Part shown: piece after piece, positions 16,076 through 64,000 of the stretch
Numbering within the stretch: position 1 is the stretch's first letter
Layout: each line of letters begins with the position of its first letter
Assembly (NCBI RefSeq): GCF_022538055.1
Contig: NZ_JAKZAM010000005.1
Location: 62,001-126,000 of the forward strand
Reading direction: 5' to 3'
Origin: Cognataquiflexum nitidum
Lineage (GTDB): Bacteria > Bacteroidota > Bacteroidia > Cytophagales > Cyclobacteriaceae
DNA: 64,000 nt
Made by a program: the position numbers and the translations under genes
Notes under the pieces: generated by a model
The model's input: only the letters and a program-made list of their open reading frames with translations
What the model was told of the DNA's origin: nothing
Databases searched by the model: none

Positions 16076-16094
16076 GTATTTTTTTATCTAATCT

Positions 16095-18969: not shown

Positions 18970-19059
18970 AGAATTCTATTGGCGAGTATAAGTATATTTA
19001 TTTCAAGCCATTAAAATTCTTTTGAAAAACTATTTATTCAACCCAAAATAAGTTATCCA

Positions 19060-19545: not shown

Positions 19546-19548
19546 TCC

Positions 19549-43455: not shown

Positions 43456-43844
43456 TTTTGTTCTTTCTTTTTTTCTTATTGTCTTAAATTCAAGAAATAA
43501 GTGCAGCTTACTTTCTGCTTAAATGTAATTGTCCTGTAAGTATTCTCAAGGTAAAACACCCATCCCCTCATATCTACATCAGAGATTAGATTTTTTTGAT
43601 TAGAATTCTGTTTAGGTTTACCAGGCTTCTAAGTTGTAAATATTCAGCAGATTTAATTTACTTCTTTAAAAAAGGTAACCTAATAGGGAGACAAAGTCAC
43701 GAATTTCCCATAAAATGATGTTCATTAATGATAAATTTCTTATCAAATTAGGTTAAAATTGAACCATACTTTGATTTTTAGCTATCCAATTTTTAAAAAT
43801 CGATGTTTTGTTATATCATTGGATGTTTACCTCAAATCTTAAAA
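43456..43844. other. Intergenic region upstream of the inositol-region LacI gene
   Basis: No supported gene and no further copy of the GCAAACGTTTGC palindrome. A in-frame ATG at 43803 lies 42 bp before the chosen start of the LacI gene. Confidence 0.5.
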
Positions 43845-44978: not shown

Positions 44979-44995
44979 TACGCAAACGTTTGCAT
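44979..44995. promoter_or_regulatory. LacI-type operator upstream of the iol operon
   Basis: TACGCAAACGTTTGCAT contains the perfect 12-bp palindrome GCAAACGTTTGC (44982-44993) with central CG. The same 17 bases occur at 55284-55300. A weaker half-site ACCCAAACGCTTT lies 20 bp downstream. Confidence 0.75.
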
Positions 44996-45294
44996 GTGGA
45001 TAAATACCCAAACGCTTTTTTTATTAATCAATTTGTCGTTAAGTTGAATGATATTATTTGATTAATCTCAAACATGCCGGTTTGTATAAATTGGATTTAT
45101 AAAGAGACAGCCAAAAAGGTTTTAACCAGAATGTCATCCTAGGGGCTCGAACCAAACCTTTCATGACAGTTCGGACTATCCCTTTTGTTTCAAGTAATAA
45201 GTTGTAAGTGATTCTTTGCGTTACTTGTTGCATGGTGGACTTATCTGAATTTAAATCCATCTCGAGACATACATTTCAAAAAATATTTTCCAAA
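44996..45294. other. Leader region of the iol operon
   Basis: About 300 bp between operator and iolJ. No supported gene; a stretch near 45130-45185 has short words also seen in intergenic DNA. A minus-strand frame here was rejected. Confidence 0.5.
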
Positions 45295-46260: not shown

Positions 46261-46269
46261 GGTAACATC

Positions 46270-47151: not shown

Positions 47152-48161
47152 AAAATCCCATATATGATGTTTTAGCTATAGGTAGGTCTTCAATAGATCT
47201 ATATAGTCAACAAGTAGGTGCAGAGTTTATTGATATAAAAGGCTTTGATGCATTTGTAGGTGGTTCTCCATTGAATATTGCTACAGGTTGTAGCAGACTT
47301 GGTCTCAAAAGTGCCCTGTTTACAGGGGTTGGTGAAGATAAAGTAGGTGATTTTATTTTGAATTTCCTGAAAAATGAAAATGTCGAAACTTGTTTTATTC
47401 CGAGGATTCCAGGTTCAAGAAGCAGTGCTGTAATCCTTGGTATTCAGCCTCCGGATAAATTTCCCTTGGTGTATTATAGGGACAATTGTGCTGACAGCCA
47501 AATTACAATAGATCATGCCAACATGATTCCTTTTGAGGAATTTAGAATAGTACAGGTATCAGGAACGGCCCTAAATAAAGATCCAAGTAGGTCGACGACT
47601 ATTTTTTGCATTGAAAAATCCCATGCGCTGGATATTCCGGTGGTCTTGGACATAGATTTCCGAGCAGATCAGTGGCATGATTTCAGGGCTTTTGGGGTGA
47701 TCTTGAGATCGATAATCCCAAAAATTAAAATTGCCATAGCGACTGAAGAAGAAATATTAGCAGTTATGATTAAAGATCCTAGCCAGGTTAAAATAGAGTA
47801 TCAGCAGATCTCTGCTCCGATTATTTTAGGAGATATTGATACTGCAATTTCCGAAATTATGGCCCTTGGATTGGAAATTTTGTTGGTAAAAAGAGGGTCT
47901 AAAGGAGTAAGTATTTATGAAAAAAATGGAAATGTAACTGATGTCCCAGGTTTTCCTGTAGTTCCATTAAATGTCTTAGGTGCAGGTGATGCCTTTGCAT
48001 CGGGATTTATCTATGGGTTTTTGAAAAAGTGGTCTCTTTACAATTCATGCAGAATGGGAAATGCGAGTGGTGCCCAGGTGGTATTGCAGTCCGGTTGCGC
48101 AAACTTTATGCCCACCTTGTCTGAATCAGATCAATTTATTTCCTCTTTTGGCGGGTTTTAA
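47148..48161 (+). CDS. iolC: 5-dehydro-2-deoxygluconokinase
   Basis: Phosphorylates 2-deoxy-5-keto-D-gluconate, giving the substrate for IolJ. The 337-residue PfkB kinase opens DVLAIGRSSIDLYSQQVGAE and has FVGGSPLNIATGCSRLG (about 36-52), DLDFRADQWH-like Asp-rich lid (DIDFRADQW), and the C-terminal GAGDAFASGFIYG (about 275-287). Overlap with iolB (ATGA) shows translational coupling. The C-terminal IolJ-like domain present in some IolC proteins is absent; the aldolase is a separate gene here. Confidence 0.92.
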   Translation: MKNPIYDVLAIGRSSIDLYSQQVGAEFIDIKGFDAFVGGSPLNIATGCSRLGLKSALFTGVGEDKVGDFILNFLKNENVETCFIPRIPGSRSSAVILGIQPPDKFPLVYYRDNCADSQITIDHANMIPFEEFRIVQVSGTALNKDPSRSTTIFCIEKSHALDIPVVLDIDFRADQWHDFRAFGVILRSIIPKIKIAIATEEEILAVMIKDPSQVKIEYQQISAPIILGDIDTAISEIMALGLEILLVKRGSKGVSIYEKNGNVTDVPGFPVVPLNVLGAGDAFASGFIYGFLKKWSLYNSCRMGNASGAQVVLQSGCANFMPTLSESDQFISSFGGF

Positions 48162-48240
48162 TCACACCCAAAATAAAAGAGAATCTTTAAGGTGTCTTTT
48201 CAAAAAATTTTTGATCAAGAAGAATAAAATAATCAAAAAA

Positions 48241-50112
48241 ATGAATCGAGTCAAACTTTCAGTATCCCAGGCAATAATCAAATTTCTTTCTAATCAATAT
48301 GTGGAAAGAGACAAAATTGAACATCAGTTTTTTGCAGGCTGTTTTGGGATATTCGGTCATGGAAATGTCGGAGGAATTGGTCAGGCACTTCACCAATATC
48401 CTGAATTTAGATTTTTTCAGGCAAGAAATGAACAGGCTATGGTGCATTCGGCTGTGGCGTATACAAAAATGAAAAACAGATTGTCAACTATGGTCTGTAC
48501 CTCTTCCATAGGTCCGGGAGCAACCAACATGATAACGGGCGCAGCTCTGGCGACAATAAATAGGCTTCCTGTTCTTCTATTGCCCGGCGATATTTTTGCA
48601 ACGAGGAAAGTCGACCCTGTCCTCCAGCAATTAGAATCCACAAGTACCCAAGATATTTCTGTAAATGACTGTTTCAAACCGGTATCAAAATATTGGGACA
48701 GGATTAATAGACCTGAACAGTTGACAAGTTCCTTGATGGCTGCCATGAGAGTACTTACTTCACCTTCCGAAACAGGCACAGTGACATTATGCCTTCCCCA
48801 AGATGTTCAGGCAGAGGCGTTTGATTTTTCCAAAGATCTTTTTGAAAAAAGGATTTGGTACATTCCAAGGCCTGTTCCGGAACAGGAATTACTGTTGAGG
48901 GCAGCTTCGTCAATCCGAAAATCTAAGAAACCCCTCATAATTGCAGGAGGTGGAGTCCTTTACAGCGAGGCTTCAAAAGTTTTGGAAGAATTTGTCTCTC
49001 AAACAGGAATTCCTATTTGTGAAACTTTTGCTGGTAAGGGTTCTTTGCCTTATGACCATCCCTTGAATTTAGGAGCAGCTGGAGCTACTGGTACTGATGG
49101 TGCTAATATCATAAGTAGTGAAAGTGATTTGATAATTGGAATTGGTACCCGATATAGTGATTTTACAACAGCGTCAAAAACAGCTTTTCAGAATGAACAA
49201 GTGAGGTTTTTGAATATCAATGTATCCGAGTTTGATGCTTTTAAAAATGGAGCATTATCACTTATTGGAGACGCAAAAAGCACATTATTGGCCTTAAAGG
49301 CGATTTTGGGTGATTATACCACCGATCCTGAATTCCAAACTAGGATCAAATCATTAAATGAGTCTTGGGATAAAAAAGTCCAAGCTGCTTATTTCTATAA
49401 AGAAGATGAAGACAAATTACCTTGTCAATCAGAAATAATTGGTGCTGTCAATAATTTTTCAGGTCCAAAAGATGTGGTCTTATGTGCTGCAGGCAGTCTT
49501 CCCGGTGACCTACATAAGCTTTGGAGAACTAGAGATCCTAAAGGATTTCACCTTGAATACGGATATTCCTGTATGGGGTATGAGATTGCAGGTGGGTTAG
49601 GGGCAAAGATGGCTTCTCCCGATAGGGAAATTTATGTTATGATAGGAGATGGAAGTTATCTTATGATGTCAACGGAAATAGTTACATCAATCCAAGAAGG
49701 TTACAAGCTCACAATCATACTTATCAACAACAATGGTTTTGCTTCAATTGGAGGATTGTCCAAATCACTTGGTACAGAAGGATTTGGAACATCTTATCAA
49801 TATCGAAATCAAATTACTGGGCAACTCGACGGTGGATTTCTTCCTGTTGACCTTGCAGAAAATGCAAAAAGTCTGGGGGCAAAAGTTATCATAGCAAAAG
49901 GAATGAATGATTTCCAAAATGCTTTAAAAGAATCTAAAGAATACCCAATGACAACCGTAATTTATACAGAAACGCAGCCCGAAACAAAACTTGAGAGATA
50001 TGGGGATTCTTGGTGGGAGGTACCTGTCTCAGAGGTATCCCAAAAATCTGCCGTCCAAGAAGCTTTCAAAAAAATGGAAAAACAACAAAAAAAGCAAAGA
50101 CAGTTTATTTAA
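48241..50112 (+). CDS. iolD: 3D-(3,5/4)-trihydroxycyclohexane-1,2-dione hydrolase
   Basis: A thiamine-diphosphate enzyme that opens the ring of diketo-inositol. I start it at ATG 48241 (MNRVKLSVSQAI), giving 623 residues. The longer frame from 48061 overlaps iolC and is unlikely. The ThDP-activating Glu64 is in FFQARNEQAMVHSAVAY, and the cofactor-binding GDGSYLMMSTEI with downstream INNNGFASIGGL is at about 468-495. The C-terminus is basic and Gln-rich. It is the central and most specific enzyme of the operon, and confirms inositol rather than other sugar catabolism. Confidence 0.95.
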   Translation: MNRVKLSVSQAIIKFLSNQYVERDKIEHQFFAGCFGIFGHGNVGGIGQALHQYPEFRFFQARNEQAMVHSAVAYTKMKNRLSTMVCTSSIGPGATNMITGAALATINRLPVLLLPGDIFATRKVDPVLQQLESTSTQDISVNDCFKPVSKYWDRINRPEQLTSSLMAAMRVLTSPSETGTVTLCLPQDVQAEAFDFSKDLFEKRIWYIPRPVPEQELLLRAASSIRKSKKPLIIAGGGVLYSEASKVLEEFVSQTGIPICETFAGKGSLPYDHPLNLGAAGATGTDGANIISSESDLIIGIGTRYSDFTTASKTAFQNEQVRFLNINVSEFDAFKNGALSLIGDAKSTLLALKAILGDYTTDPEFQTRIKSLNESWDKKVQAAYFYKEDEDKLPCQSEIIGAVNNFSGPKDVVLCAAGSLPGDLHKLWRTRDPKGFHLEYGYSCMGYEIAGGLGAKMASPDREIYVMIGDGSYLMMSTEIVTSIQEGYKLTIILINNNGFASIGGLSKSLGTEGFGTSYQYRNQITGQLDGGFLPVDLAENAKSLGAKVIIAKGMNDFQNALKESKEYPMTTVIYTETQPETKLERYGDSWWEVPVSEVSQKSAVQEAFKKMEKQQKKQRQFI

Positions 50113-50163
50113 GCTTTAAATTCTTTTCAATCATTTTTCCCTGAACCGAATTAACCAAATCCA

Positions 50164-51747
50164 ATGACTTTAACTGTAGTCAGTTTTATTGCTTTCACAC
50201 TATTTGTGGCATTTTATTCTTGGTACAAAACCAGAAACCAAAATTTAAAAACCAGTGATGGCTATTTTTTAGGTGGAAAAAGTCTTACAGGGGTAGTTAT
50301 TGCAGGGTCCATGATAATGACCAATATATCTACAGATCACTTAGTTGGAATGAATGGTTCGTCTTATGTAAATGGTTTTATAATTGTAGCGTGGGAGGTG
50401 ACCTCCTCACTCGCATTGATTTTGGCCGCCGTATATTTTGTGCCTAGGTATTTAAAAATGGGGCTTTCAACCATTCCTGAATATTTGGAAAGGAGATTTG
50501 ATGCTACAATTAGATCTATGGTAGCATTTTTTCTTTTGGTTTCCTTTGCCATTACCCTTTTGCCCATTGTCCTTTACACAGGAGCAATAAATCTTGAAAG
50601 TTTATTTGATGTTGCTGCCACATTAGGTGTCAGTTATGATCAAGGTATTTGGATAACGGTAGTTACTGTGGGGATTTTGGGATCTATTTACGCGGTTTTG
50701 GGAGGCTTAAAAGCAGTTGCAATTTCCGATACTATAAATGGGTATGGTTTATTTATTGCCGGAGCCTTGGTTCCAGTCATGGCCTTGATTTTGATAGGGG
50801 ATGGTAATCCAGTACAAGGTTTTTTCAAGGTTTATAACCACCGCCCTGAAAAATTTAATGTCATTGGTAAAAGTGATTCGGTCCTTCCATTTGAAACTTT
50901 ATTTACAGGTTTGATAATTAACCAAATCTACTTTTGGTGTATGAATCAAACTATAATTCAACGAGCTTTAGGTGCCAAAAACCTCATTGAAGCTCAAAAA
51001 GGGTTATTGCTTACAGGAGTGTTAAAGCTAATCGTCCCATTTATTATTGTTCTTCCCGGGGTTATTGGATACTATTACTTTGGTGAGAGTCTTTTTGAAG
51101 AACAGGATCAGGTCTATCCGGCGCTTGTAAAAAAAGTCTTGCCAGTTGGCTTTACGGGTCTATTTGCTGCAATTGTATTAGGAGCTGTATTGAGTACATT
51201 CAATAGTGTACTGAATAGTGCCTCTACCATCTTCAGTCTCGACATCTACAAAAAAATAATAAATCCCCGCGTTTCAGATATCAATCTAGTCAGGGTTGGT
51301 AAGGCTTCAGCTTCAATTCTAGCAGTAAGTTCAATTTTAATTGCCCCCATGATTTCCAGAGCACCCGAGGGTGTTTTCCAGCTTTTACAAGAACTAAATG
51401 GTATATTTTTTATACCAATCGCTTCGATTATGCTAGCAGGATTTTTGACTAAGAATATTACAGCACTTTCAGCAAAAGTGGCATTGATTACAGGACTTGT
51501 ATTCTATATCACGACGGTATTTATACTCAAGGTTGATATCCATTTTGTTCATATCTGGGGAATAGAATTTTTGATCAATGTGGGGGTTATGTTCCTGATT
51601 TCTTATGCAAGGCCCCAAAGAATAGTAGATCGACCTATTTTAATGGTGACACCTGTGGATTTAAGGTCTTGGAAATTTACGCCTATTGTCTCTTTGTTTT
51701 TAGTACTGATTCCTGTTGGGATTTACATATTCTATAGTTTAAAATAA
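50164..51747 (+). CDS. Sodium:solute symporter (SSS family), likely inositol transporter
   Basis: A 527-residue membrane protein of the SLC5/SSS family, with about 13-14 helices. Features are YFLGGKSLTGVVIAGSMIMTN (about 32-52), GLSTIPEYLERRFDATIRSM, DTINGYGLFIAGALVP and FAAIVLGAVLSTFNSVLNSA. Bacterial relatives include sodium/glucose, sodium/galactose and sodium/myo-inositol carriers. Its place inside the iol operon between iolD and iolA makes inositol the best guess. It would bring across the inner membrane what the SusCD pair brings across the outer one. Confidence 0.88.
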   Translation: MTLTVVSFIAFTLFVAFYSWYKTRNQNLKTSDGYFLGGKSLTGVVIAGSMIMTNISTDHLVGMNGSSYVNGFIIVAWEVTSSLALILAAVYFVPRYLKMGLSTIPEYLERRFDATIRSMVAFFLLVSFAITLLPIVLYTGAINLESLFDVAATLGVSYDQGIWITVVTVGILGSIYAVLGGLKAVAISDTINGYGLFIAGALVPVMALILIGDGNPVQGFFKVYNHRPEKFNVIGKSDSVLPFETLFTGLIINQIYFWCMNQTIIQRALGAKNLIEAQKGLLLTGVLKLIVPFIIVLPGVIGYYYFGESLFEEQDQVYPALVKKVLPVGFTGLFAAIVLGAVLSTFNSVLNSASTIFSLDIYKKIINPRVSDINLVRVGKASASILAVSSILIAPMISRAPEGVFQLLQELNGIFFIPIASIMLAGFLTKNITALSAKVALITGLVFYITTVFILKVDIHFVHIWGIEFLINVGVMFLISYARPQRIVDRPILMVTPVDLRSWKFTPIVSLFLVLIPVGIYIFYSLK

Positions 51748-51761
51748 TAATTAATAAAAAA

Positions 51762-53237
51762 ATGGAACTTTTAAAAAATTACATTGATGGATCTTGGACT
51801 AGTAGCATTGAAGAAAATACAAAAGAAGTAATCAATCCTGCAAATCAACAGATTTTGGCAAGAGTGCCTTTTGGGAAGGGTACCTCTAAGGATCTCGAAA
51901 AAGCGGTTTTAGCGGCTCAGGTGGCATTTCATGATTGGAAGAATGTTCCCGTAATGCAAAGGGTACAGCCATTGTATAAACTCAAAACACTTTTGGAAGA
52001 AAATACAGATCAAATCGCCAGAATCATTACCATGGAATGCGGCAAAACATTTGCCGAGTCAAAAGGTGAACTGCAAAGGGCGATAGAAAATATCGAAACT
52101 GCATGCTCAACCCCGACATTAATACAAAGTGAATTTTCAGAAAATGTTGCTAGGGGTGTAGACGAATTTATGATAAGGCAGCCCCTGGGTGTGTGTTGTT
52201 GTATATCACCATTTAATTTTCCCGGAATGATTCCTTTTTGGTTTTTGCCCTACGCCATTGCCTGTGGAAACACATTTATCCTCAAACCATCTGAAAAAGT
52301 TCCCCTCACAATGATGAAATGTTTTGAGCTTTTGGATCAAATAGGTCTACCCAAAGGAGTGGTTAATTTGGTTCACGGAGGTAAGGAAACAGTGGATGCC
52401 ATGCTCGAACATCCTCTGGTCAAGGCAATCAGCTTTGTTGGGTCAACAGAGGTTGCTAGGTACATTTATCAGAAAGGTTCTGCTTATGGTAAGAGAGTAC
52501 AAGCTCAAGGAGGGGCAAAAAATCCAATATTAATATTACCTGACGCAGATCTTGATCTAAGTTCAAAAATTATTGCAGATAGCGTGTTTGGGTGTGCAGG
52601 TCAGCGCTGCCTAGCGGCATCCAATATAATTACTGTAGGAGATGAAAACGGATTGGTTAAAGATAGTATTTATCACGCTTCATTAACAAAAAAGACAGGT
52701 TATGGTCTTGATGAGGGAATTGAAATGGGGCCTGTTATTTCTAAGGAAAGCAAAAGCAGGATTGAACAGCTTATTCAAATAGGCGAAAGAGATGGGGCCA
52801 AAGTAATTTTAGACGGTAGGAATCATAAAGTGCCGGGATTTGAAAATGGTAATTTTTTGGCGCCAACTATATTAGAAGATCTCCCAATTAAGAGTGAATT
52901 GATGAAAACCGAAATTTTCGGACCTGTATTGACTTTGCTTACCCTGAAATCTTTGGATGATGCCATTGAGTTTATCAATTCAAATCATTATGGAAATATG
53001 GCATGCATATTCACCTCGAGTGGAGCAAGTGCCAGAAAATTCAGGAATGAAGTAAATTCAGGAAATGTAGGTATAAACATAGGGGTTGCAGCCCCCATGG
53101 CGCAATTTCCTTTTAGTGGATGGAATAATAGCTTTTTTGGAGATTTACATGCTCAGGGAAGGCATGGGATTGAATTTTATACCCAGACAAAAGTAGTAAT
53201 TGAAAGATGGCCTAAAGAGTGGTCTAGAAAATTTTAA
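51762..53237 (+). CDS. iolA: CoA-acylating methylmalonate/malonate-semialdehyde dehydrogenase
   Basis: Oxidises malonate semialdehyde to acetyl-CoA and CO2, the last step of inositol catabolism. The 491-residue aldehyde dehydrogenase has CCISPFNFPGMIPFWFLPYA (about 145-164, the MMSDH-specific stretch), FVGSTEVARYIY, and catalytic Cys near 280 in FGCAGQRCLAAS. LSEKM-type NAD contacts (FGPVLTL) follow. The position just before iolE with the other iol genes supports the name. The same enzyme family acts in valine breakdown. Confidence 0.94.
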   Translation: MELLKNYIDGSWTSSIEENTKEVINPANQQILARVPFGKGTSKDLEKAVLAAQVAFHDWKNVPVMQRVQPLYKLKTLLEENTDQIARIITMECGKTFAESKGELQRAIENIETACSTPTLIQSEFSENVARGVDEFMIRQPLGVCCCISPFNFPGMIPFWFLPYAIACGNTFILKPSEKVPLTMMKCFELLDQIGLPKGVVNLVHGGKETVDAMLEHPLVKAISFVGSTEVARYIYQKGSAYGKRVQAQGGAKNPILILPDADLDLSSKIIADSVFGCAGQRCLAASNIITVGDENGLVKDSIYHASLTKKTGYGLDEGIEMGPVISKESKSRIEQLIQIGERDGAKVILDGRNHKVPGFENGNFLAPTILEDLPIKSELMKTEIFGPVLTLLTLKSLDDAIEFINSNHYGNMACIFTSSGASARKFRNEVNSGNVGINIGVAAPMAQFPFSGWNNSFFGDLHAQGRHGIEFYTQTKVVIERWPKEWSRKF

Positions 53238-53241
53238 CAGT

Positions 53242-54147
53242 ATGGAAAAAATTAAAGTTGCAAATGCACCGTGTTCTTGGGGAGCCCTCGAATTTGGATT
53301 TGAGGAAGAAACCCAAAGTTATCAGGAGGTTCTGAATGAAATGGAACAGACTGGATATGAAGGTACAGAACTTGGAGATTGGGGTTTTTTACCTACCAAT
53401 CCCGAAGAGTTGAGAAATGTGATTTTCAAGAAGAAATTTTGGATTCCGGGAGCCTTTGTCCCTGTTTATTTAGCTGATGAAATCAATCATGATAAGGGGA
53501 TTGAAAAAGCCCTTAAAGTTGCAGGTTTACTGGTGGCTGCGGGGTTTGATGATTCATTTATTATTCTAGCCGACGAAAATGGAACTGTTGAAGAAAGGAC
53601 CAAAAATGCAGGAAGAATATCGCCTGAAAATGGATTAAGTGAAGATAAATGGAAGATTTTCGCAAAAGGGGCCAATAAAATTGCAAAAGCAGTTATGGAT
53701 AAGTTCGGTTTAAGAACTGTGTTCCATCATCACTGTGCAGGTTACGTTGAAACAGAACAAGAGACTGAAAGACTGTTGCAGTTGACGGATCCGGATTTAT
53801 TGGGGCTCTGCTTAGATATGGGACATTTAGCTTTTGGAGGTGGGAATCCTGTTTCATTTTTAAATAAGCATATTGAAAGAATTTGGCATATACATTTTAA
53901 AGATTTTGATCCAGAAATAGGGGCATTGAGTAAATCAAATCAATGGGATTATTTCACTTCTGTCAAACAAGGAGTTTTTTGCAAACTAGGACACGGATCC
54001 GTTGACTTTCCGGAAATAGTCAGAATACTAAAAGGTAGTAATTACTGTGGATGGATAGTAGTGGAACAGGATGTTCTTCCGGGAATGGGTAGCCCAAAAA
54101 AATGTGCTGATTTAAATAGAAAGTATATTTCAAGCCTTGGTTTATAA
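53242..54147 (+). CDS. iolE: Inosose dehydratase
   Basis: Removes water from scyllo-inosose to give diketo-inositol. I start at ATG 53242 (MEKIKVANAPCSWG), four bases after iolA, giving 301 residues; the longer frame overlaps iolA. The xylose-isomerase-like TIM-barrel fold shows NAPCSWGALEF, ELGDWGFLPT, RTVFHHHCAGYVETE with metal ligands, LDMGHLAFGG, WHIHFKD and VEQDVLPG. These match IolE closely. Confidence 0.93.
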   Translation: MEKIKVANAPCSWGALEFGFEEETQSYQEVLNEMEQTGYEGTELGDWGFLPTNPEELRNVIFKKKFWIPGAFVPVYLADEINHDKGIEKALKVAGLLVAAGFDDSFIILADENGTVEERTKNAGRISPENGLSEDKWKIFAKGANKIAKAVMDKFGLRTVFHHHCAGYVETEQETERLLQLTDPDLLGLCLDMGHLAFGGGNPVSFLNKHIERIWHIHFKDFDPEIGALSKSNQWDYFTSVKQGVFCKLGHGSVDFPEIVRILKGSNYCGWIVVEQDVLPGMGSPKKCADLNRKYISSLGL

Positions 54148-54216
54148 GTAGAGCTGATTCATAAGAATGATAATAAATTTTAGTTTCAAAAATAAAATAT
54201 TTAAAATTTTGATATA

Positions 54217-55224
54217 ATGAAGAAAGTTAGAATTGGCATAATCGGAATGGGTAGAATAGGGAAAATTCACTACGATAATTTAAAAAACAAGGTTGAAAAT
54301 ACAGAGGTTGTTTCTTTTTCGGATCCTTTTTTTAAGGAAAGCCTTGAAATACCTAATTTAGAAGTTGAAGCTTTGGTTAGCTGTAAGGAAGTAGATGCAG
54401 TGATTATTTGTTCACCTACCAATACACATGCAGATTATATTTCACTGTGCGCAAAGCACAAAAAAGACGTTTTCTGCGAAAAACCACATGATCTTTCCTT
54501 ACCAAGAGTTATTGAATCCCTTCAGGAGGTAAAAGCAGCTGGCATCAAATTAATGTTGGGGTTTAATAGGAGGTTTGATCCAAACTTTCTTAAAATAAAA
54601 AAATTAGTGATGGATGGCAAAATCGGGGAGCCTTTTTTGATCAAAATTACGAGCAGGGATCCTGCGCCACCATCACTTTCCTATTTGAAGAGCTCGGGAG
54701 GTATGTTTTTGGATATGACCATTCATGATTTTGATATGGCAAGGTATATTATGGGAAAGGAGGTCACTGAGGTATATGCTGTTGGAGGTGCATTTGTTTC
54801 TGAAGATGTAATTAGTGCTAATGATATTGATATTGCCACAGTTACATTAAAATTTGAGGATAATACTATGGCTTTAATTGACAATAGCAGAAAGGCGGTA
54901 TATGGATACGACCAAAGGTTAGAGGTATTTGGTTCTGGTGGAATGGCCAAAGCCGAAAATAATAATCATGACACCCACACACTTTACAATGAGATTGGAG
55001 CCCATTCTTCTCTTCCTCTTGACTTCTTTATGGATAGATATACCTCATCATACCTTAACGAAATAAAGAGTTTTATTAATTCTATTGTATTGGGAACAAA
55101 TGTAAGTGTCACAGGTGAGGATGGTTTTCAAGCCTTAAAAATCGGCATTGCAGCTGGTATTTCAATAAGAGAAAATAGACCTGTAAAAATTAATGAAATC
55201 AATCAATTACAATCAATTTTGTGA
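54217..55224 (+). CDS. iolG: Inositol 2-dehydrogenase
   Basis: Oxidises myo-inositol to scyllo-inosose with NAD, the first step of the pathway. The 335-residue Gfo/Idh/MocA protein has GIIGMGRIGKIHYDNL (about 6-21), FCEKPHDLSL with the conserved Lys of the EKP motif near 92, and GGMFLDMTIHDFDMARYIMG (about 161-180), the IolG-type Asp/His pair. It is the last gene in the operon, so the pathway IolG, E, D, B, C, J, A is complete in the window except for a possible epimerase IolI. Confidence 0.93.
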   Translation: MKKVRIGIIGMGRIGKIHYDNLKNKVENTEVVSFSDPFFKESLEIPNLEVEALVSCKEVDAVIICSPTNTHADYISLCAKHKKDVFCEKPHDLSLPRVIESLQEVKAAGIKLMLGFNRRFDPNFLKIKKLVMDGKIGEPFLIKITSRDPAPPSLSYLKSSGGMFLDMTIHDFDMARYIMGKEVTEVYAVGGAFVSEDVISANDIDIATVTLKFEDNTMALIDNSRKAVYGYDQRLEVFGSGGMAKAENNNHDTHTLYNEIGAHSSLPLDFFMDRYTSSYLNEIKSFINSIVLGTNVSVTGEDGFQALKIGIAAGISIRENRPVKINEINQLQSIL

Positions 55225-55679
55225 TTTGAGGGTAAAAGTGTTCTCAATTGCTTTGAAATCTTGATGCCTTTTGTACTGTAAACTACGCAAACGTTTGCAT
55301 TCCACAAAGTTGATTTAGGTTGATTTTGTTAGTAATATAGTATTGAATTAAAAGTAGGTGATTGATTATTAATTGTGAAGTATTTCAAAAACTCCATACA
55401 ATAGGTAAGGTCATGATCTTTGAAACTATTCAATAAAAGAGTAAAAAAAGGTAAATCGCTTTCTGTTTTTTTATCTCTGTAAAGAGACCAAAAAATCTTA
55501 TAAATAATTGATTAAAAATTAAGTTGAAATCTTTTGAGATCTCAGGTGGGATACCTATGTCTTATTTGTAGGTGTATTAGCTGAAACACTAGGGTTTTAA
55601 TTAAAAGTTAAAAAATGAAATAAAAATTCTACACCAAAAAATATCAATTACATAAAACCTAAAACCATAACAATTTAAC
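55225..55679. other. Intergenic region upstream of susC
   Basis: Contains the operator copy at 55284-55300 and then about 380 bp of AT-rich leader without a supported gene. A promoter box was not identified with confidence. Confidence 0.6.
55284..55300. promoter_or_regulatory. LacI-type operator upstream of susC
   Basis: Identical over 17 bases (TACGCAAACGTTTGCAT) to the site upstream of iolJ at 44979-44995, with the same 12-bp palindrome. It is the strongest sign that susCD and iol belong to one regulon. Confidence 0.75.
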
Positions 55680-58600
55680 ATGAAAAAAATCATTACAATT
55701 CCAATTCCGAGTTTTTCTAGACGGATAGCTTGGTGTCAAAAAACAAAGACAATATGGTTATTCCTCATATTCTTTTTGTACATAGGAGCAAGTGCTTCGA
55801 TAGCACAAAACACATTGATTTCTGGTGTTGTTACCTCAGAGGAGGATAACCAACCTATGCCCGGTGTTTCAATTCTTCTTAAGGGAACAAACATAGGCAC
55901 AGTTAGTGACCTGAATGGAAAGTTCAGTATTTATGCAAATAATCCCAATACCGATGTTCTGGTCTTTTCTTTTCTCGGGTTTTTGACGCAAGAAGTGGTT
56001 TTAGGTAACCGAACCAGCCTTGAAATAATCATTAAGCCGGATATTTCTCAGCTTGATGAAGTAGTTATTGTTGGATATGGAGAAACCAAGCGCCGTGATT
56101 TGACTGGATCGGTAGGATCAATGAATTCGGAGTTAATAAAGGAAACAAACAAAGTCAATGCCTTTCAAGCACTACAGGGGCAAGTCGCGGGTGTTATGAT
56201 CCAATCTACCGACAATAAGCCGGGAGGGGGATTTAATGTCAGAATTAGAGGATCAAATACGATCAATTCCAATGAAACTACCGAACAAGGAGGTTTTACA
56301 GCCGGCTTAAACCCCTTATTCATCGTTGACGGTATCTTTGTTGATGACATCTCATTTTTGAATCCTTCGGATATCGAAAGGATGGATGTCCTAAAAGATG
56401 CCTCGGCAACTGCAATATATGGTTCGAGAGGTAGTAATGGAGTAGTAATCATAGAAACAAAGAAAGGTTCTAAAGGAAAGGTAACAGTTCAATATGATAA
56501 TTACATTGGAGTGAGACAGGCATACAATATTCCTGATATGCTTCAGGGAGAGGAATTTCTTACCTATTTTAGAGATGCAGTAGTAGGTAATCAATGGGCT
56601 TCAGGTAACTTAAACTTTGGGCCGACTGATGTTAATCTAAGTGATTTTTTGCGCCCAAATGAAATTGAAAATGTTAATGCGGGCAGGTATGTGAATTGGA
56701 TTGATATGATGTTGCAAAATGGAACCCAACAAAACCATACTCTAAATCTCACAGGTGGGACAGAAAGTACAATTTATGGATTCGGGCTCGGCTATACAAA
56801 AGATGAAGGTACATTCCCGGGTGAAGACTTTGAAAGGGTAACATTGAGGGCAAATGTAAATGGAACGCTATCTAAGTATATCAAGGTAGGTTTTAATAAC
56901 TATGCTTCATTCGATGTTAGAAATGAAGGAAGTAGGGAAGGTCTCAGAAATGCTTATAGGCTTCGGCCCACAGGTACCCCTTATGAAGAAAACGGTGAGC
57001 CCAAGTTTTTTCCACTAGAAGGGGAGACTTTTATCACCAGTCCTCTTTTTGAGCCTACAAATATGACAATGGAAACCAAGACTTTGAATTATCTTAGTAA
57101 TCTTTCATTGGCAGTCACTCCGACTAAAAACATTACGATTACTTCCAATTTTTCGCCAAATATCCAATTCTCCAGATTTGGTGAATATAGAGGAAGATTC
57201 AATAAATCAACAAATGGAATTATTCAGAATACAAGGGCTGATGTAACTAACTCAAATCGATTGTCCTACGTTTGGGATAATATCTTCAGCTACAATGGGA
57301 AAATAGGGAATGACCATGTGATTAATGGAACTTTTGTCTACTCACAGTTTTTGGAAAGGTCAGAGAATTTCCGACAGCAAAGAAGAGGATTTTCAACAGA
57401 TCAATTTTTGTTTTATAACATGGCTGCAGGTCCTGATGTCAGAGATGTTACAAGTGGTCTGACCAAACAATCATTGGAATCTTATACTGCCAGAATAAAC
57501 TATATTTTCAAAGATAAATATCTTTTGACATTGACAGGAAGATATGACGGAGCTTCCATTCTCGCAGCAGGAAATAAATGGGCATTTTTCCCTTCAGCGG
57601 CTTTGGCATGGAGAATATCAGATGAGAACTTTATGAAAAGCCAGAGTTTGATTGATGATTTGAAATTAAGAGTAAGTTATGGACAAACTGGAAACAATGG
57701 TGGAGGAGCAGGACTTAGACCACTTGGTTCTCAGTCACTTATTGGGACATCATTTACTAATCTTGGCGATAGGGTGATCCAGACGGCATTTGTAAATAAC
57801 CTTGCCAATAGAAATCTTGAATGGGAAAGAACCAAAGAAATCAATTTTGGCTTGGATTTCGGATTATTTAAAAGCAGAATTTATGGATCGGTAGATGTCT
57901 ATCAGAGGAATAACGAGGGAATTATTTTCTTCCGGCCAACTCCTAATTACACCGGGTTTTCAGGGGTTTTTGAAAATGTAGGTGAAGCTTCAAATAAAGG
58001 GATAGAACTGACTTTGAATTCTGTAAATATTGACAAAGGCGATTTGAAATGGACAACATCTTTGAATTTTTCCTCAAACAGAAATCAAATAACCAAGCTG
58101 TATGGAGACCTTGAAGAGATTTTGTTTGGTGTACAGGCAGGAAGCTATATCCACAGAGTAGGTCAGCCAGTAGGGTCTATTTTTACATGGGAGTTTGACG
58201 GCATTTGGCAACTTGATCAATTGGATGAAGCCAGGGCATTTGGTCAGCTTCCCGGTCAGGTAAGAGTAAAAGACCTCAATGGAGATGGGGTGATCAATGC
58301 AGCAGATCGAAATGTCATAGGTAACAACATGCCCAAATGGATGGGAGGTATGGGAAACAACCTCAACTATAAGAACTTTGACTTATCAATTTTCTTGTTT
58401 GCTTCTATTGGGGCAATGTCAAATAGTTATTTTCATATATCCCACTCGGGAGGTTTTGATGCGACGCCTGCTAGATTCAATAGTTTGAAAACAAATTATT
58501 GGACTCCTGAAAACCCTTCTAATGAATGGTTTCAACCAAGCAATCAAGGACCATTTTCAGAAGTGTTGAGATACCAGGATGTTTCTTATGTTCAGGTCGG

Positions 58601-58802
58601 TTATATTACTTTGGGATATAATTTTGGAAGCACACTTTTAAACTCCATCGGTGTCAAAAGCCTAAGGCTTTATTTTACAGCCCAAGATCCTTTTATTTTC
58701 ACATCATTTGAAGGATGGGATCCAGAAAGTGCCGGAAGAAACAGCTGGGGATCAGCTCACATGTCTAGGATTCTAATGGGTGGTCTTAACGTTAAATTTT
58801 AA
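55680..58802 (+). CDS. susC: SusC/RagA-family TonB-linked outer-membrane transporter
   Basis: A 1040-residue outer-membrane importer of the SusC family. An N-terminal signal segment (about 1-43) is followed by a CarboxypepD_reg-like domain (LISGVVTSEEDNQPMPGVSI, about 46-65, to about 125), the plug domain (TonB box-like LDEVVIVGYGETKRRDLTG near 129, then VRIRGSNTI and LKDASATAIYGSRGSNGVV near 240), and a 22-strand barrel to the end (RILMGGLNVKF). It directly precedes susD. Its substrate would be an oligosaccharide or other inositol-containing compound, inferred from the shared operator and neighbours. Confidence 0.93.
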   Translation: MKKIITIPIPSFSRRIAWCQKTKTIWLFLIFFLYIGASASIAQNTLISGVVTSEEDNQPMPGVSILLKGTNIGTVSDLNGKFSIYANNPNTDVLVFSFLGFLTQEVVLGNRTSLEIIIKPDISQLDEVVIVGYGETKRRDLTGSVGSMNSELIKETNKVNAFQALQGQVAGVMIQSTDNKPGGGFNVRIRGSNTINSNETTEQGGFTAGLNPLFIVDGIFVDDISFLNPSDIERMDVLKDASATAIYGSRGSNGVVIIETKKGSKGKVTVQYDNYIGVRQAYNIPDMLQGEEFLTYFRDAVVGNQWASGNLNFGPTDVNLSDFLRPNEIENVNAGRYVNWIDMMLQNGTQQNHTLNLTGGTESTIYGFGLGYTKDEGTFPGEDFERVTLRANVNGTLSKYIKVGFNNYASFDVRNEGSREGLRNAYRLRPTGTPYEENGEPKFFPLEGETFITSPLFEPTNMTMETKTLNYLSNLSLAVTPTKNITITSNFSPNIQFSRFGEYRGRFNKSTNGIIQNTRADVTNSNRLSYVWDNIFSYNGKIGNDHVINGTFVYSQFLERSENFRQQRRGFSTDQFLFYNMAAGPDVRDVTSGLTKQSLESYTARINYIFKDKYLLTLTGRYDGASILAAGNKWAFFPSAALAWRISDENFMKSQSLIDDLKLRVSYGQTGNNGGGAGLRPLGSQSLIGTSFTNLGDRVIQTAFVNNLANRNLEWERTKEINFGLDFGLFKSRIYGSVDVYQRNNEGIIFFRPTPNYTGFSGVFENVGEASNKGIELTLNSVNIDKGDLKWTTSLNFSSNRNQITKLYGDLEEILFGVQAGSYIHRVGQPVGSIFTWEFDGIWQLDQLDEARAFGQLPGQVRVKDLNGDGVINAADRNVIGNNMPKWMGGMGNNLNYKNFDLSIFLFASIGAMSNSYFHISHSGGFDATPARFNSLKTNYWTPENPSNEWFQPSNQGPFSEVLRYQDVSYVQVGYITLGYNFGSTLLNSIGVKSLRLYFTAQDPFIFTSFEGWDPESAGRNSWGSAHMSRILMGGLNVKF

Positions 58803-60425
58803 ATGAAATTCAAAATGAAAACCATACAGAAATCAATATATAAAATAAATGTACTGCTAATCATAGTATTGACTTGGTCTTGTGGTGGGTTTTTAGATGA
58901 AGAAAACAGAGAATCCTTAACGGATGCGGTTTTGTTCAGTGAACCTGAATCTTTTGACCAATTAGTTGCAAGTGTTTATGAACGAATGAGATTCTCAGAA
59001 ACATTCTATGATTTGGACCATCAGGGTACAGATATCTTTACCCGTGGTGATATCATTGCAGGAATTAGTGAGTTAAACGATTATGTGAATTTGAACCCAA
59101 TCAATGGCTCACTGCTCACCTATTGGAGAAATTATTATCGAGTCATTGCCGCAGCCAACACGGCTTTGGGAAGAGCTGATGCTATAGCAGGGTTGAATGA
59201 GAATGTTAAGGTAAGAGGTTTGGCAGAGGTGAAATTTTTTAGGGCATATTCCTATTTCCGGCTTGTGGAGCAATTTGGAGGTGTACCTCTAATATTAAAT
59301 GAAATCAGGGATTCACAGGTTTTGTTTGCAAGGTCCTCAGAGGAAGAGATTTATAATCAAATCATTATTGATTTGGATGAGGCGCTTGCAGGGACTCTAG
59401 ATAGCCCGGTTCTATTTGGCCAAATAACAAAAAATGCGGTTAGAAACCTGAAAGCTAAAGTTGTTTTGACCAGGGGGTATAAGACTTTTAGATCAAATAA
59501 TGACTTTCAAGAAGCTGCTCAATTGGCTGAAGCTGTAATCCAGGCTCATCCTTTGACAGCAAATTTTGCAACCTTGCACAGCAGGTCTACACAGAGGAAT
59601 TCGGAAGTGATTTTTTCTCTTCTCTATGGTTCCAATCAGGTTTCTAGGGGAGTGGGAAACAACAGGCATCTTCTTTTTAAATTTGTTTATGATATCTACC
59701 CCGGACAGACCAGATCTAATTTACTTCATAGAGGCTTAGGATCAGCCCCTACCCCTTACTATTATAGTTTGTTTAAGGAAGGTGACCAAAGGGAAGATGT
59801 TACTATTAGAAGAATATTCTTGGCTGAAGTTAACAGTTCTGATAATTCAATATTGAGAGGCGATACTTCTATTTTCTTTCCAAAAGAAGCTTGGTCGCAA
59901 GAATTAATTAATTCCAAAAAATATCAAGTAATTAATCCGGATCAATATTTTATCCCAAACGGGATTACTCAAGTCCAATACCCAATGTTTAGAAAGTTTG
60001 ATGATCCCGGAGTTCCTTATACAAATCCCGGAATTAACCCTGATGGTGAAAGAGATGCCGTGATAATGAGATCTGCCGAAACTAGATTAATTGCCGCAGA
60101 GGCTTATTTAAATATTGGAAATCTTGAACTGGCCGCACAGCACATTAATGCTTTAAGGACACGATCAGGATTGACAACGCAGATTTCTTCCAGCGAGGTA
60201 ACTTTAGATTTAATCTTGGATGAAAGTGCCAGAGAATTGGGGGGAGAGATAAGCAGATGGATGGAACTAAAAAGAACAGGTAAATTAATTGAAAGGGTTT
60301 TGGCAAATAATCCACATGCCGCACTAAATGCCGCTTTAAGACAATTTCACCTTTTGAGACCTATTCCTCAAACAGAAGTAGATATTTCAGGGGGAATACT
60401 GACCCAAAATCCTGGATACAATTAA
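58803..60425 (+). CDS. susD: SusD/RagB-family surface lipoprotein
   Basis: A 540-residue lid lipoprotein that works with SusC. A lipobox ending VLTWSC (Cys about residue 29) is followed by FLDEENRESLTDAVLF, a typical SusD opening, TPR-like helices such as KVRGLAEVKFFRAYSYFRLVEQFGGVPLI, and a C-terminal SusD domain with DAVIMRSAETRLIAAEAYLN and LLRPIPQTEVD. The start follows the susC stop without a gap; an in-frame ATG 12 bases later gives a more usual signal peptide. Binding specificity cannot be read from sequence. Confidence 0.93.
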   Translation: MKFKMKTIQKSIYKINVLLIIVLTWSCGGFLDEENRESLTDAVLFSEPESFDQLVASVYERMRFSETFYDLDHQGTDIFTRGDIIAGISELNDYVNLNPINGSLLTYWRNYYRVIAAANTALGRADAIAGLNENVKVRGLAEVKFFRAYSYFRLVEQFGGVPLILNEIRDSQVLFARSSEEEIYNQIIIDLDEALAGTLDSPVLFGQITKNAVRNLKAKVVLTRGYKTFRSNNDFQEAAQLAEAVIQAHPLTANFATLHSRSTQRNSEVIFSLLYGSNQVSRGVGNNRHLLFKFVYDIYPGQTRSNLLHRGLGSAPTPYYYSLFKEGDQREDVTIRRIFLAEVNSSDNSILRGDTSIFFPKEAWSQELINSKKYQVINPDQYFIPNGITQVQYPMFRKFDDPGVPYTNPGINPDGERDAVIMRSAETRLIAAEAYLNIGNLELAAQHINALRTRSGLTTQISSSEVTLDLILDESARELGGEISRWMELKRTGKLIERVLANNPHAALNAALRQFHLLRPIPQTEVDISGGILTQNPGYN

Positions 60426-60461
60426 AGTATTTCCCACAAACTCAGATTGATTTTATCTATT

Positions 60462-60494
60462 AAAAAGAAACCTCTTCATAAGAGGTTTCTTTTT
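60462..60494. terminator. Terminator after susD
   Basis: Stem AAAAAGAAACCTCT/AGAGGTTTCTTTTT with loop TCATA, followed by a T-rich run. It separates susCD from the phosphatase operon. Confidence 0.9.
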
Positions 60495-60510
60495 AATCAT
60501 TCGCGAGAAT

Positions 60511-60706: not shown

Positions 60707-61678
60707 ATGAAAAATAAAATCCCCAAACTATACGTAATCTTATTGTTTGTTTATTTCGGCTTAGGTAGATTTTTAGTCATTGGACAAGACTCAAATTTAA
60801 AAGAAAAACTTTCTCTTGACGCTGTGAATTTTATCGTTCTTGGAGATTGGGGAAGGATGGGCGATGATTTTCAGATCCCTGTAGCAGCGCAAATGGCAAA
60901 AACAGCCAAAGAAATTCATGCTCAGTTCTTTATCAGTGTAGGGGATAATTTTTATCCCAAAGGAGTAGCGTCTACACTTGATCCGCAATGGAGATATTCA
61001 TTTGAGGATATATACAAAGATTTTTCTCTGCATAGAGAATGGTATAGTATTCTAGGAAATCATGATTATATGGGAAATCCCGATGCTCAAGTGGAGTATA
61101 CTAAAATAAGTAGGAGGTGGGTAATGCCTGGAAGGTATTTTGAAAAGGACATTCTATTAAAAGACCGGAATAAATCAGTCATGCAATTATTGTTTATAGA
61201 CACAAATCCACTTATTCCCGAATTTTACAAGAATAAAGAATATGGGCCAAATGTAATGACCCAAGATACAACTCTACAACAGATTTGGATAGACCAATCC
61301 CTTGCAAGAGAAGATGTTCAGTGGAAAATTGTTATAGGCCACCATCCCATGTTTACGGGTAGTAAAGCTAGAAGAGAGGGTTATGATACAAGATCAATCA
61401 GATCGAGTTTGAAAACAAAATTCGAAAAAAATAAAGTTGATATGTATATCGCAGGGCATGACCATAGTCTGCAACATTTGATTTCAGAAACGGGTATTCA
61501 CCACTTTGTTTCGGGGTCTGCTTCAGAAGCAACGGACGTGGATATGCTTCCAATGAGTAAGTTTGCTAAGGACGAATATGGTTTTTTCGTTTTTTCTGCT
61601 ACTGCCCAAGAGATAAGGGTATTTGCCATCTCGCATACCGGTGAGATTTTATATCAAACAACCATAGATAAAAAATGA
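60707..61678 (+). CDS. Secreted metallophosphoesterase, purple acid phosphatase-like (ACP5 type)
   Basis: A 323-residue exported phosphatase. A signal peptide (about 1-27) precedes the five metallophosphoesterase blocks of purple acid phosphatases: GDWG (46-49), GDNFY (79-83, with the metal-bridging Asp and the Tyr that gives purple enzymes their colour), GNHDY (117-121), GHHP (211-214) and GHDH (250-253). This order and spacing fits tartrate-resistant type 5 phosphatases, which act on phosphomonoesters, some on phytate. Next to an inositol regulon it could release inositol from phosphorylated forms. It overlaps the following gene by four bases (ATGA). Confidence 0.85.
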   Translation: MKNKIPKLYVILLFVYFGLGRFLVIGQDSNLKEKLSLDAVNFIVLGDWGRMGDDFQIPVAAQMAKTAKEIHAQFFISVGDNFYPKGVASTLDPQWRYSFEDIYKDFSLHREWYSILGNHDYMGNPDAQVEYTKISRRWVMPGRYFEKDILLKDRNKSVMQLLFIDTNPLIPEFYKNKEYGPNVMTQDTTLQQIWIDQSLAREDVQWKIVIGHHPMFTGSKARREGYDTRSIRSSLKTKFEKNKVDMYIAGHDHSLQHLISETGIHHFVSGSASEATDVDMLPMSKFAKDEYGFFVFSATAQEIRVFAISHTGEILYQTTIDKK

Positions 61679-63459
61679 AAAATATTTCCAGAAAAGCCTT
61701 CATAAAACAAACTATCGGTATTGGGATTTCATCTTCTTTAATTCCTTTAAATACCGGTCTATTTGCATTTGGAAATGATTCTGCTGATGGTATATCCCAG
61801 CTAATGGAAAAGCTTGTAAAAGGAAGTAATAAAAATGTTTCAAACTTGCTTAAACCCGAAAATGCAAGGCTTACCACATATACTAGGCAGCAAGGGTATG
61901 ATTTTGCAATACTCTGTGCTGCATATTCATACCGAAGTTCTAGTTATTTTCAGAAAAGGGAAGTTATCGAAAGACTAAAAACGTTAATTGAGTTTTTGCT
62001 TTCTATGCAAAATGCCGATGGAACAATGGATTCAGGTAATCTTGAATCACCACCAGATACGGCCTTTGTCATGGAGCCGCTATGCGCTGCAGCCAAAATT
62101 CTTCTAGATCAAAAAGACAAGAATCTTGAGGAGATAAAATCCTTATTACAGCTATTTATTGTCAAGGCAGGAGAAGGTCTACTGACAGGAGGAATTCACA
62201 CTCCAAATCACCGTTGGGTTCTCAGTTCGGCTTTGGCCAAAATAAACAGAGTTTATCCAGACAAAAGGTACGTGGCAAGGATTGATGAATGGCTTTCGGA
62301 AGGGATATTTATCGATAAGGATGGACATTATCCCGAACGAAGTATGAATTATTCAGCTGTAGAAAATGAAGCTTTTATCACTATGGCGCGTTTGCTGAAT
62401 AGAGATGAACTTCTCGAGCCCGTAAGAATAAACCTTCGAATGACTTATTACTATATGGAACCAAATGGTGATTTGGTCACATTTGATTCGAGGCGTCAAG
62501 ATCAATATTCTGAAAAAAGTATAATTAATCAATATTTAAACTACAGGTTCATCGCAATAAAAGACAAGGATCCATTTTTTGCTGCCATTTGTGGATTAAT
62601 TGAGAAACTTGAAGGCTTTGAAAATGAAATTATCGATAAAGGGCTCTATTATTTTATTGAAGAACCATTCCTTCAAAATGAACTTCCTATTCAGGAAAAG
62701 CTACCATTGAATTACGAAACAGTATTCAGTACAAGCTCTTTAGCCAGAATCAGAAGAAATGAAATGAGTATGACCATTTTTGGAGGGGTGGACTGGCCTT
62801 TGATTATTGCTTCAGGTAGATCAATAAGTCCTAATTTCTTTTCTTTTAGAAAAGGAGCAGCGATTTTAAAACACATGAGAATTTCTTCTTCTTTCTTTAA
62901 TATGGGACACTTTAGGAGTAATGGACTTGAAGTGGATGACGGGGTATATACGCTATATAAAAAACTAGAGGCACCTTACTACCAACCCCTTCCTGAGAAT
63001 TTAAGGAGACCCGATGGTGACTATGATCTTACTCCCAGTGTTGACGGGAGATTTTGGAGCAAAATGTCATTTGAAAAAAGACCTGTCAGTAATGTGAAAA
63101 CATTAGAAACTAAAGTAAAAATTAAAGAATCAAATGGGGAAGTTTCAATGGAAGTTGAAGTCATCGGTTTGGAAGGAGTACCTGTCACGATTGAGCTATG
63201 TTTTCATGAAAATGGAATTTTATCAGGTGTAGAAAGTGTCGGTGACAATCAGAATAATTCATATCTACCGTATGATTTTGGCACATTTTCCTCTGGAAAA
63301 GACAGAATAACCTTTGGTCCCGGTCTGAAAAAGCATCAAAATATTTATCGGCTAGATGGTGAAATGTATTCAGTACATTTTGGAACTCTTCGGGGGACAG
63401 GTCAGCATGTTTACCTAACCGGATATACCCCATTTTCTCATACGCTAACATTCAAATAG
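61675..63459 (+). CDS. Secreted alpha-toroid protein, heparinase II/III-like (putative lyase)
   Basis: A 594-residue exported protein. The N-terminus ISRKAFIKQTIGIGISSSL resembles a Tat-type signal with RK in place of RR. Residues about 40-320 are helix-rich and suggest an alpha/alpha toroid (YRSSSYFQKREVIERLKTLIEF, HTPNHRWVLSSALAKI, YPERSMNYSAVENEAFITMA). About 330-594 are beta-rich. This order resembles polysaccharide lyases of the heparinase II/III and related folds, and SMNYSAVENEAF is similar to their substrate-site motif. The family was not securely recognised. It is coupled by overlap to the phosphatase gene and followed 10 bp later by a DUF4861 gene. Confidence 0.5.
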   Translation: MKNISRKAFIKQTIGIGISSSLIPLNTGLFAFGNDSADGISQLMEKLVKGSNKNVSNLLKPENARLTTYTRQQGYDFAILCAAYSYRSSSYFQKREVIERLKTLIEFLLSMQNADGTMDSGNLESPPDTAFVMEPLCAAAKILLDQKDKNLEEIKSLLQLFIVKAGEGLLTGGIHTPNHRWVLSSALAKINRVYPDKRYVARIDEWLSEGIFIDKDGHYPERSMNYSAVENEAFITMARLLNRDELLEPVRINLRMTYYYMEPNGDLVTFDSRRQDQYSEKSIINQYLNYRFIAIKDKDPFFAAICGLIEKLEGFENEIIDKGLYYFIEEPFLQNELPIQEKLPLNYETVFSTSSLARIRRNEMSMTIFGGVDWPLIIASGRSISPNFFSFRKGAAILKHMRISSSFFNMGHFRSNGLEVDDGVYTLYKKLEAPYYQPLPENLRRPDGDYDLTPSVDGRFWSKMSFEKRPVSNVKTLETKVKIKESNGEVSMEVEVIGLEGVPVTIELCFHENGILSGVESVGDNQNNSYLPYDFGTFSSGKDRITFGPGLKKHQNIYRLDGEMYSVHFGTLRGTGQHVYLTGYTPFSHTLTFK

Positions 63460-63469
63460 AAATCATTAA

Positions 63470-64000
63470 ATGAATTTTAAAAAGCCAATCAAACTGCCCG
63501 TAATGATTATAGCACCTCTGCTGCTTTTGATCTCTTGTTTTCAAGCACCTTTGGAAAATAATTATGTAGTAAATATTGAAAACACTGAGGATTTTGATTT
63601 AAAAAATAAACCGGTTTTGATCAGCCGATCTGAATTTCAGGGTTTGGATCCCGAATTATTCCCACTACTGCTATCTCCAAATAATGACACTATACCTGTC
63701 CAAGTTGATGATTTGGATGGAGATGGGAGCTGGGATGAGTTGTTTTTTGTATTTGATATCAAAGCGATGTCAAAAGAAGTACTTGAATTGAAATGGTCAA
63801 AAAATAAAATATTTTTTGATCCAAAAGTAGCTGTGCGTTTTGGTGTAAGGGCTTCAGAGGAAGATATAGTCAGAAAATCAAAAGCTGATATATTTTATCC
63901 CAATCAATTACCGGGTATGACGGGCTACCAGCCTTATCAGACTGATGGACCCTCTTGGGAAAATGACATGGTAGGTTTTAGACATTATCTGGATGGAAGA
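63470..64000 (+). CDS. DUF4861-family lipoprotein, 3' end outside window
   Basis: At least 177 codons, open to the window edge. A lipobox ending LLISC (Cys about residue 23) indicates lipidation. The mature part contains LLSPNNDTIPVQVDDLDGDG, DELFFVFDI and GYQPYQTDGPSWENDMVGFR, the pattern of DUF4861 proteins, common in Bacteroidota polysaccharide-use loci and of unknown function. It is 10 bp after the toroid gene, so the three genes form one operon. Confidence 0.75.
   Translation, partial: MNFKKPIKLPVMIIAPLLLLISCFQAPLENNYVVNIENTEDFDLKNKPVLISRSEFQGLDPELFPLLLSPNNDTIPVQVDDLDGDGSWDELFFVFDIKAMSKEVLELKWSKNKIFFDPKVAVRFGVRASEEDIVRKSKADIFYPNQLPGMTGYQPYQTDGPSWENDMVGFRHYLDGR

Follow-up and report, generated by a model that had tools for sequence, protein, structure and literature searches.

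The window, a stretch of 64,000 nucleotides of Cognataquiflexum nitidum (contig NZ_JAKZAM010000005.1, positions 62,001 to 126,000), carried a complete iol operon (45208–55224, forward strand) encoding an aldolase, IolB, IolC, IolD, a sodium:solute symporter (SSF; 50164–51747, forward strand), IolA, an IolE-like protein and IolG, among which IolG, IolD, IolB and IolC were identified at the NCBIfam equivalog level. The operon is preceded by the gene of a LacI-family regulator (43803–44873, forward strand) and followed by those of a SusC-type TonB-dependent transporter (55680–58802, forward strand) and a SusD-type surface glycan-binding lipoprotein (58803–60425, forward strand). A strong intrinsic terminator lies between susD and the next gene (60459–60497, forward strand; −20.3 kcal/mol, z = −8.8); it was revealed by folding and was not called after susD by the promoter/terminator scanner. 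Beyond it, on the forward strand, are encoded a secreted TRAP-type purple acid phosphatase (PAP; 60707–61678, 323 aa, with a signal peptide), an exported protein of 594 aa composed of an alpha-toroid and a beta-sandwich (61675–63459) and a DUF4861 lipoprotein (63470–64000, the first 177 of its 434 aa inside the window), the first two reading frames overlapping by 4 bp. A sequence-only reading of the window had described such a trio, overlapping or nearly touching and separated from susD by a terminator, and both the genes and the terminator were found at these positions. The following gene of the operon, read from the contig about 990–2360 bp beyond the window end (L002:6994-8358), encodes a secreted unsaturated uronyl hydrolase of the GH105/GH88 type.

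The PAP matched PF00149 (Metallophos, E = 1.7e-17), its best PDB relatives were mammalian TRAP/purple acid phosphatases (E ~ 1e-35), and its metal-ligand motifs GDWG, GDNFY (with the Tyr), GNHD, GHHP and GHDH were intact as read in the translation. The DUF4861 protein, whose gene ends 774 bp beyond the window, matched PF16153 with its full 434 aa (E = 1.8e-87), and its context suggests that it is carbohydrate-active. Comparison of this protein with PDB sequences gave nothing useful, and DUF4861 was named in no paper found in the literature search. Its structure model was poor (pLDDT 63.7), and the matches that this model gave to beta domains in GH38 enzymes were therefore set aside. The GH105 enzyme matched PF07470 over the full domain (E = 3.6e-80, 270 bits against a cut-off of 26.6) and strongly and over its full length PDB 3k11 (E = 3e-157, 527 bits). 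Known GH105 enzymes (YteR; PDB 3k11) have a pectin, ulvan or alginate set around them, whereas here inositol genes take that place. A sink for unsaturated uronate is present in the same window: KduI (11678–12553), a KduD-like dehydrogenase (10891–11676), and a KDG kinase and an Eda-type aldolase with a TRAP transporter (16181–20847).

The 594-aa protein had no match in Pfam, NCBIfam or the PDB sequences, even with a profile. An AlphaFold2 model built from 16 homologues (pLDDT 78.6) showed an alpha/alpha toroid plus an antiparallel beta-sandwich, which together with the Foldseek search confirmed the earlier description of 61675–63459 as an alpha-toroid/beta protein. The top 30 Foldseek matches in the PDB were polysaccharide lyases and one dermatan-sulfate epimerase, the best being PL15 Atu3025 (6.6e-12), exoHep, glycosaminoglycan lyases, PL17 Alg17c, PL33 BT4410 and PL8. 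Across 50 homologues, the most distant at 31% identity, residues N178, H179, R180 and Y226 and several arginines were invariant. Such polysaccharide lyases usually carry out catalysis with an Asn-His pair and a Tyr of the toroid, and N178, H179 and Y226 are the candidate catalytic residues. The protein thus resembles the lyases with toroid and antiparallel beta domains (PL15 Atu3025, PL17 Alg17c, PL33 BT4410, exoHep) in the predicted overall fold, in the invariant Asn-His and Tyr of the toroid part, in its export and in the unsaturated-uronyl hydrolase that comes after it; it differs from them in having 7–14% identity in structural alignments and no sequence match, and in its link to inositol catabolism, which none of them has.

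On the basis of the model and the fold search, the 594-aa protein is very probably a polysaccharide lyase. The neighbouring GH105 enzyme supports this assignment, because it needs a lyase product, and it lends indirect support to a beta-elimination that would give a 4,5-unsaturated uronate. A glycoside hydrolase or an epimerase on the same toroid/beta scaffold is quite improbable: GH127 hydrolases and the dermatan-sulfate epimerase were among the fold-search matches, but lyases were both the best and the most numerous, the NH/Y motif is invariant, and the requirement of the downstream GH105 would not be explained. The protein, referred to below as the lyase, possibly represents a new lyase family, which may already hold a CAZy number.

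The 16-mer ACGCAAACGTTTGCAT was found before both the iol operon (44980–44995) and susC (55285–55300). Its exact 12-mer core occurred twice in the 5.15-Mb genome, at these same two places, against 0.23 occurrences expected from base composition, and a variant with one base changed occurred at one additional site, before another SusCD pair; LacI operators of such a consensus are common in kind. The phosphatase gene, which comes after the terminator, has no such operator before it in this genome. Belliella has the same two operator sites as the window (iol and susC), and near-identical sites precede susC in Belliella, Echinicola and Cyclobacterium. The same operator stands before iol and before the polysaccharide utilization locus (PUL) that begins with susCD, and this arrangement is conserved across genomes. 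In seven other members of the family it precedes iol operons that have no adjoining lyase cluster, so that the LacI protein looks like the inositol regulator of the family. Echinicola and Cyclobacterium are devoid of iolD, and the operator sits there before susC of the susCD-lyase cluster; in Echinicola it also precedes the gene of the SSF symporter and the divergent phosphatase gene of that genus, and in one further genome (G367) it lies directly before the gene of myo-inositol oxygenase (MIOX). In the phylogenetic trees the PUL regulators of Echinicola and Cyclobacterium nested inside the LacI regulators of iol operons, and the PUL-associated SSF copies inside the iol-associated ones, both with moderate support. 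LacI is predicted to control both iol and susCD, and its location at iol operons suggests inositol or a derivative as the inducer. The known iol regulon (IolG/E/D/B/C/A) is likewise represented by a complete operon in the window, but the regulator is here of the LacI type and the predicted regulon reaches a SusCD glycan-import locus.

The SusC–SusD pair and its linkage to carbohydrate-active enzymes were conserved in relatives, SusC preceding the lyase also in Belliella, Echinicola, Cyclobacterium and G367. Three Belliella species showed the order iolA-iolE-iolG-SusC-SusD-PAP-lyase-DUF4861-GH105. Echinicola species had SSF-SusC-SusD-lyase-DUF4861, mostly with GH105 and once with an intervening GH92, so that the order lyase-DUF4861-GH105 is kept in both genera; the SSF gene of this iol-less PUL is an orthologue of the one in the iol operon. 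This PAP was absent from the Echinicola clusters, where a different metallophosphatase (629–641 aa, divergent) was present at most loci, and in two species a GH20 gene comes next, preceded by an operator. In Cyclobacterium, LacI-SusC-SusD-lyase was accompanied by a plant-type purple acid phosphatase and a protein of the alkaline phosphatase superfamily, with no DUF4861 or GH105 nearby. The order in G367 was GH92-MIOX-SusC-SusD-PAP-lyase-DUF4861, with the PAP split over two frames, and in G425 the lyase gene is convergent with MIOX, beside SusD-SusC. Two Exo_endo_phos genes adjoin the lyase in G083, and one lies downstream of GH105 in Belliella filtrata. GH92 mannosidases, GH20 hexosaminidases and unrelated phosphatases recur beside the lyase. 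Every PAP-lyase-DUF4861 trio found (the window, the three Belliella species and G367) adjoins iol or MIOX, so that the finding named in the sequence-only reading as counter-evidence, a trio located for the most part apart from inositol genes, was not obtained.

The distribution of the lyase was compared with that of inositol catabolism in 196 genomes of the family Cyclobacteriaceae, in which the lyase was present in 37, iolD over the cut-off in 15 and a clear MIOX match in 63. Either iolD or MIOX was present in 35 of the 37 genomes with the lyase and in 43 of the 159 others (p = 1e-14); in one of the two exceptions the iolD match was truncated (565 bits), and the other was a genome only 81% complete. 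At the genus level the proportions were 16/17 with the lyase and 20/67 without it (p = 1.4e-6). In this family sample iolD alone did not co-occur significantly with the lyase (p = 0.13), the pattern appearing once MIOX was added, and for this reason a second sample, 291 genomes of the order chosen after the first test, was put through the same comparison. There, iolD or MIOX was detected in 36 of 37 lyase genomes and in 39 of 254 others; outside the family of the window the counts were 34/35 and 30/214 (p = 5e-23), the single exception being a fragment of 51 aa. The genomes share ancestry, and all these p-values therefore overstate their independence. Two controls in the family sample showed no link to iolD/MIOX, namely DUF4861 (28/68, p = 0.45) and the PF07940 heparinase-type lyases in genomes without this lyase (21/63, p = 0.92); among genomes bearing PF07940 the corresponding fraction with this lyase was 31/33. 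The pattern holds in several families and genera and for two inositol pathways, iol and MIOX, which were never together in one genome of these samples.

The inositol link of the lyase cluster is strongly supported, and we regard it as close to secure. The rare operator in common, the iol synteny in three Belliella species, MIOX within the cluster of two genomes and the co-occurrence (p < 1e-13 in two samples) lend much support to the idea, put forward in the sequence-only reading, of an operon that may feed the inositol regulon; the same data contradict its caution that the link to SusCD was by position only.

With respect to phosphate, a metallophosphoesterase motif was present at 14 of 35 lyase loci, which are not independent of one another, and at none of 20 DUF4861 control PUL loci and none of 12 iol loci. 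The phosphatases at lyase loci were of several unrelated types, with AP-superfamily and Exo_endo_phos enzymes in addition, which points to selection for dephosphorylation and not to inheritance of a single gene. The presence of phosphate in the substrate is moderately supported. The closest PDB relatives of the Belliella Exo_endo_phos protein were uncharacterised proteins and a mannosyl-6-phosphatase, not a sphingolipid phospholipase.

Computation supports the gene content, the lyase fold, the operator in common, the conservation of linkage and the co-occurrence with inositol catabolism. The locus is best read as of the PUL type, with a substrate that would contain phosphate and a 4-linked uronic acid besides myo-inositol, and the head group of glycosylinositol phosphorylceramide (GIPC) as the best-fitting natural compound, a reading that we favour by a modest measure. 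Man-GlcA-Ino-P forms the core of GIPC, and in Solanaceae GlcNAc takes the position of mannose (PMC11496612). The combination of inositol, 4-linked uronic acid, phosphate and mannose or HexNAc matches this head group, and the GH92 and GH20 enzymes of the Echinicola loci fit Man/HexNAc caps. Against GIPC, GH20 enzymes normally act on beta-HexNAc, and the HexN of GIPC is alpha-linked. The gene set probably serves to remove phosphate and uronic acid from inositol-sphingolipid head groups of plants or algae, and gene content and co-occurrence suggest GIPC itself as the substrate.

In the proposed mechanism, in which we infer the exact bond cut, the ligand of the repressor and the cellular location of each step, SusCD would capture and import an inositol-phosphate glycan. 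The 594-aa enzyme would act by beta-elimination at a hexosyl/hexosaminyl-(1,4)-uronic acid bond, giving a 4,5-unsaturated uronosyl-inositol(-P), from which PAP would take off the phosphate. GH105 would release the unsaturated uronate towards KduI/KduD/KdgK/Eda, and free inositol would enter through the SSF symporter into the iol pathway (in relatives, MIOX would take this part). Both susCD and iol would open when the LacI repressor is released, presumably by a signal of the inositol pathway.

Among other substrates, an inositol-phosphate compound that bears uronic acid and mannose but is not a plant-type GIPC (an algal, fungal or protist glycolipid, or a phosphorylated uronate/mannose glycan) is unlikely, although it deserves some weight. 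GH92 adjoins the lyase in several loci, the Belliella Exo_endo_phos enzyme resembles mannosyl-6-phosphatase, and with carriers such as Echinicola, Belliella, Cyclobacterium and Emticicia the glycan need not be of land-plant origin. Nevertheless, GIPC is to our knowledge the only common inositol glycan with a uronic acid beside inositol, and the inositol glycolipids of fungi and mycobacteria, as far as we know, generally have none in this position.

A mere co-regulation, in which one LacI protein governs an inositol operon and a PUL for a uronate polysaccharide without inositol because plant or algal debris supplies both substrates together, is improbable. DUF4861 and GH105 were together in 9 of 20 control loci, which are PULs far from inositol genes, and the operators are of a general kind; but MIOX lies inside the cluster in two genomes, an inositol-type symporter lies inside the iol-less Echinicola cluster, and the co-occurrence outside the family (34/35) contrasts with the null results for DUF4861 and PF07940 in the family sample. 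The scavenging of phytate or inositol phosphates, with PAP as a phytase and the remaining genes incidental, is very improbable: PAP is in the operon, the iol pathway follows, and plant purple acid phosphatases, which include some phytases, align with the phosphatase of Cyclobacterium, but phytate leaves lyase, GH105 and SusCD without a role and the Echinicola core cluster persists without this PAP. Thus, among the substrates suggested in the sequence-only reading, the GIPC type fits lyase, GH105, GH92, GH20 and phosphatase, and phytate explains the phosphatase only.

Returning to the GIPC head group, the search of the open-access literature found no bacterial pathway for its uptake and breakdown and no such locus, and the locus may be a PUL with a new substrate class. 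A further claim, to which we give slightly less than even weight, is that it would be the first bacterial PUL dedicated to this head group, with a new lyase family cutting at the inositol-linked uronic acid and with interchangeable iol/MIOX sinks and phosphatases. The proposed substrate class is also attacked by a GIPC phospholipase C from Botrytis, which releases Man-GlcA-Ino-P, but this enzyme is fungal and splits off the ceramide only, and the paper describes no import or downstream breakdown (PMC11496612). If the proposal is true, a common membrane lipid would be a source of carbon and phosphorus for environmental Bacteroidota, and a protein family so far unassigned would be one of lyases whose substrate can be predicted. 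GIPCs rank among the most abundant plant sphingolipids, and some algae make related lipids.

Distant homologues of the lyase in Streptomyces and Subdoligranulum had no recognised inositol neighbours. A distant clade (31–39% identity) is often located beside sulfatases or other enzymes, which suggests that the lyase family may have more than one substrate.

DUF4861 genes were located beside GH105 in nine of the 20 control loci in which DUF4861 occurs without the predicted polysaccharide lyase (L091, L092, L094–L097, L099, L103 and L104), and a general partnership of DUF4861 and GH105 in uronate PULs is therefore suggested. Within the window, positions 8036–20847 harbour a uronate catabolic block encoding tagaturonate reductase, LacI, KduD-like, KduI, KDG kinase, an Eda-type aldolase and a TRAP transporter, and the unsaturated uronate predicted to be released by GH105 could plausibly be drained through this block.

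The only additional operator-like site detected genome-wide was GCAAACCTTTGC, at L085:9346 (G000:C39:179345). It is placed approximately 350 bp upstream of another susCD pair, followed downstream by an FG-GAP/UnbV protein, and this pair may be a further member of the predicted inositol regulon.

Exo_endo_phos enzymes adjoin or follow the lyase cluster in genome G083 (L051:7342–9075) and in Belliella filtrata (L014:15979–16803), the nearest PDB entries to the latter being uncharacterised proteins and a mannosyl-6-phosphatase. The phosphatase gene in the cluster of genome G367 that contains myo-inositol oxygenase (MIOX) is split over two frames (L137:11403–12480), and thus it may be decayed or mis-sequenced. 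In genome G425, a GH36 alpha-galactosidase (L136:6232–8427) precedes the lyase–MIOX pair, hinting at galactosyl-inositol-type substrates for this locus.

Distant homologues of the lyase, with 25–33% identity, were present on a linear plasmid of Streptomyces chartreusis and in two Subdoligranulum records (L150, L151 and L152), and no inositol genes were recognised beside them. Sulfatases or a sulfatase-modifying-type enzyme were encoded near members of the distant lyase clade at L059, L061, L064 and L144, and for this reason the clade may act on sulfated substrates.
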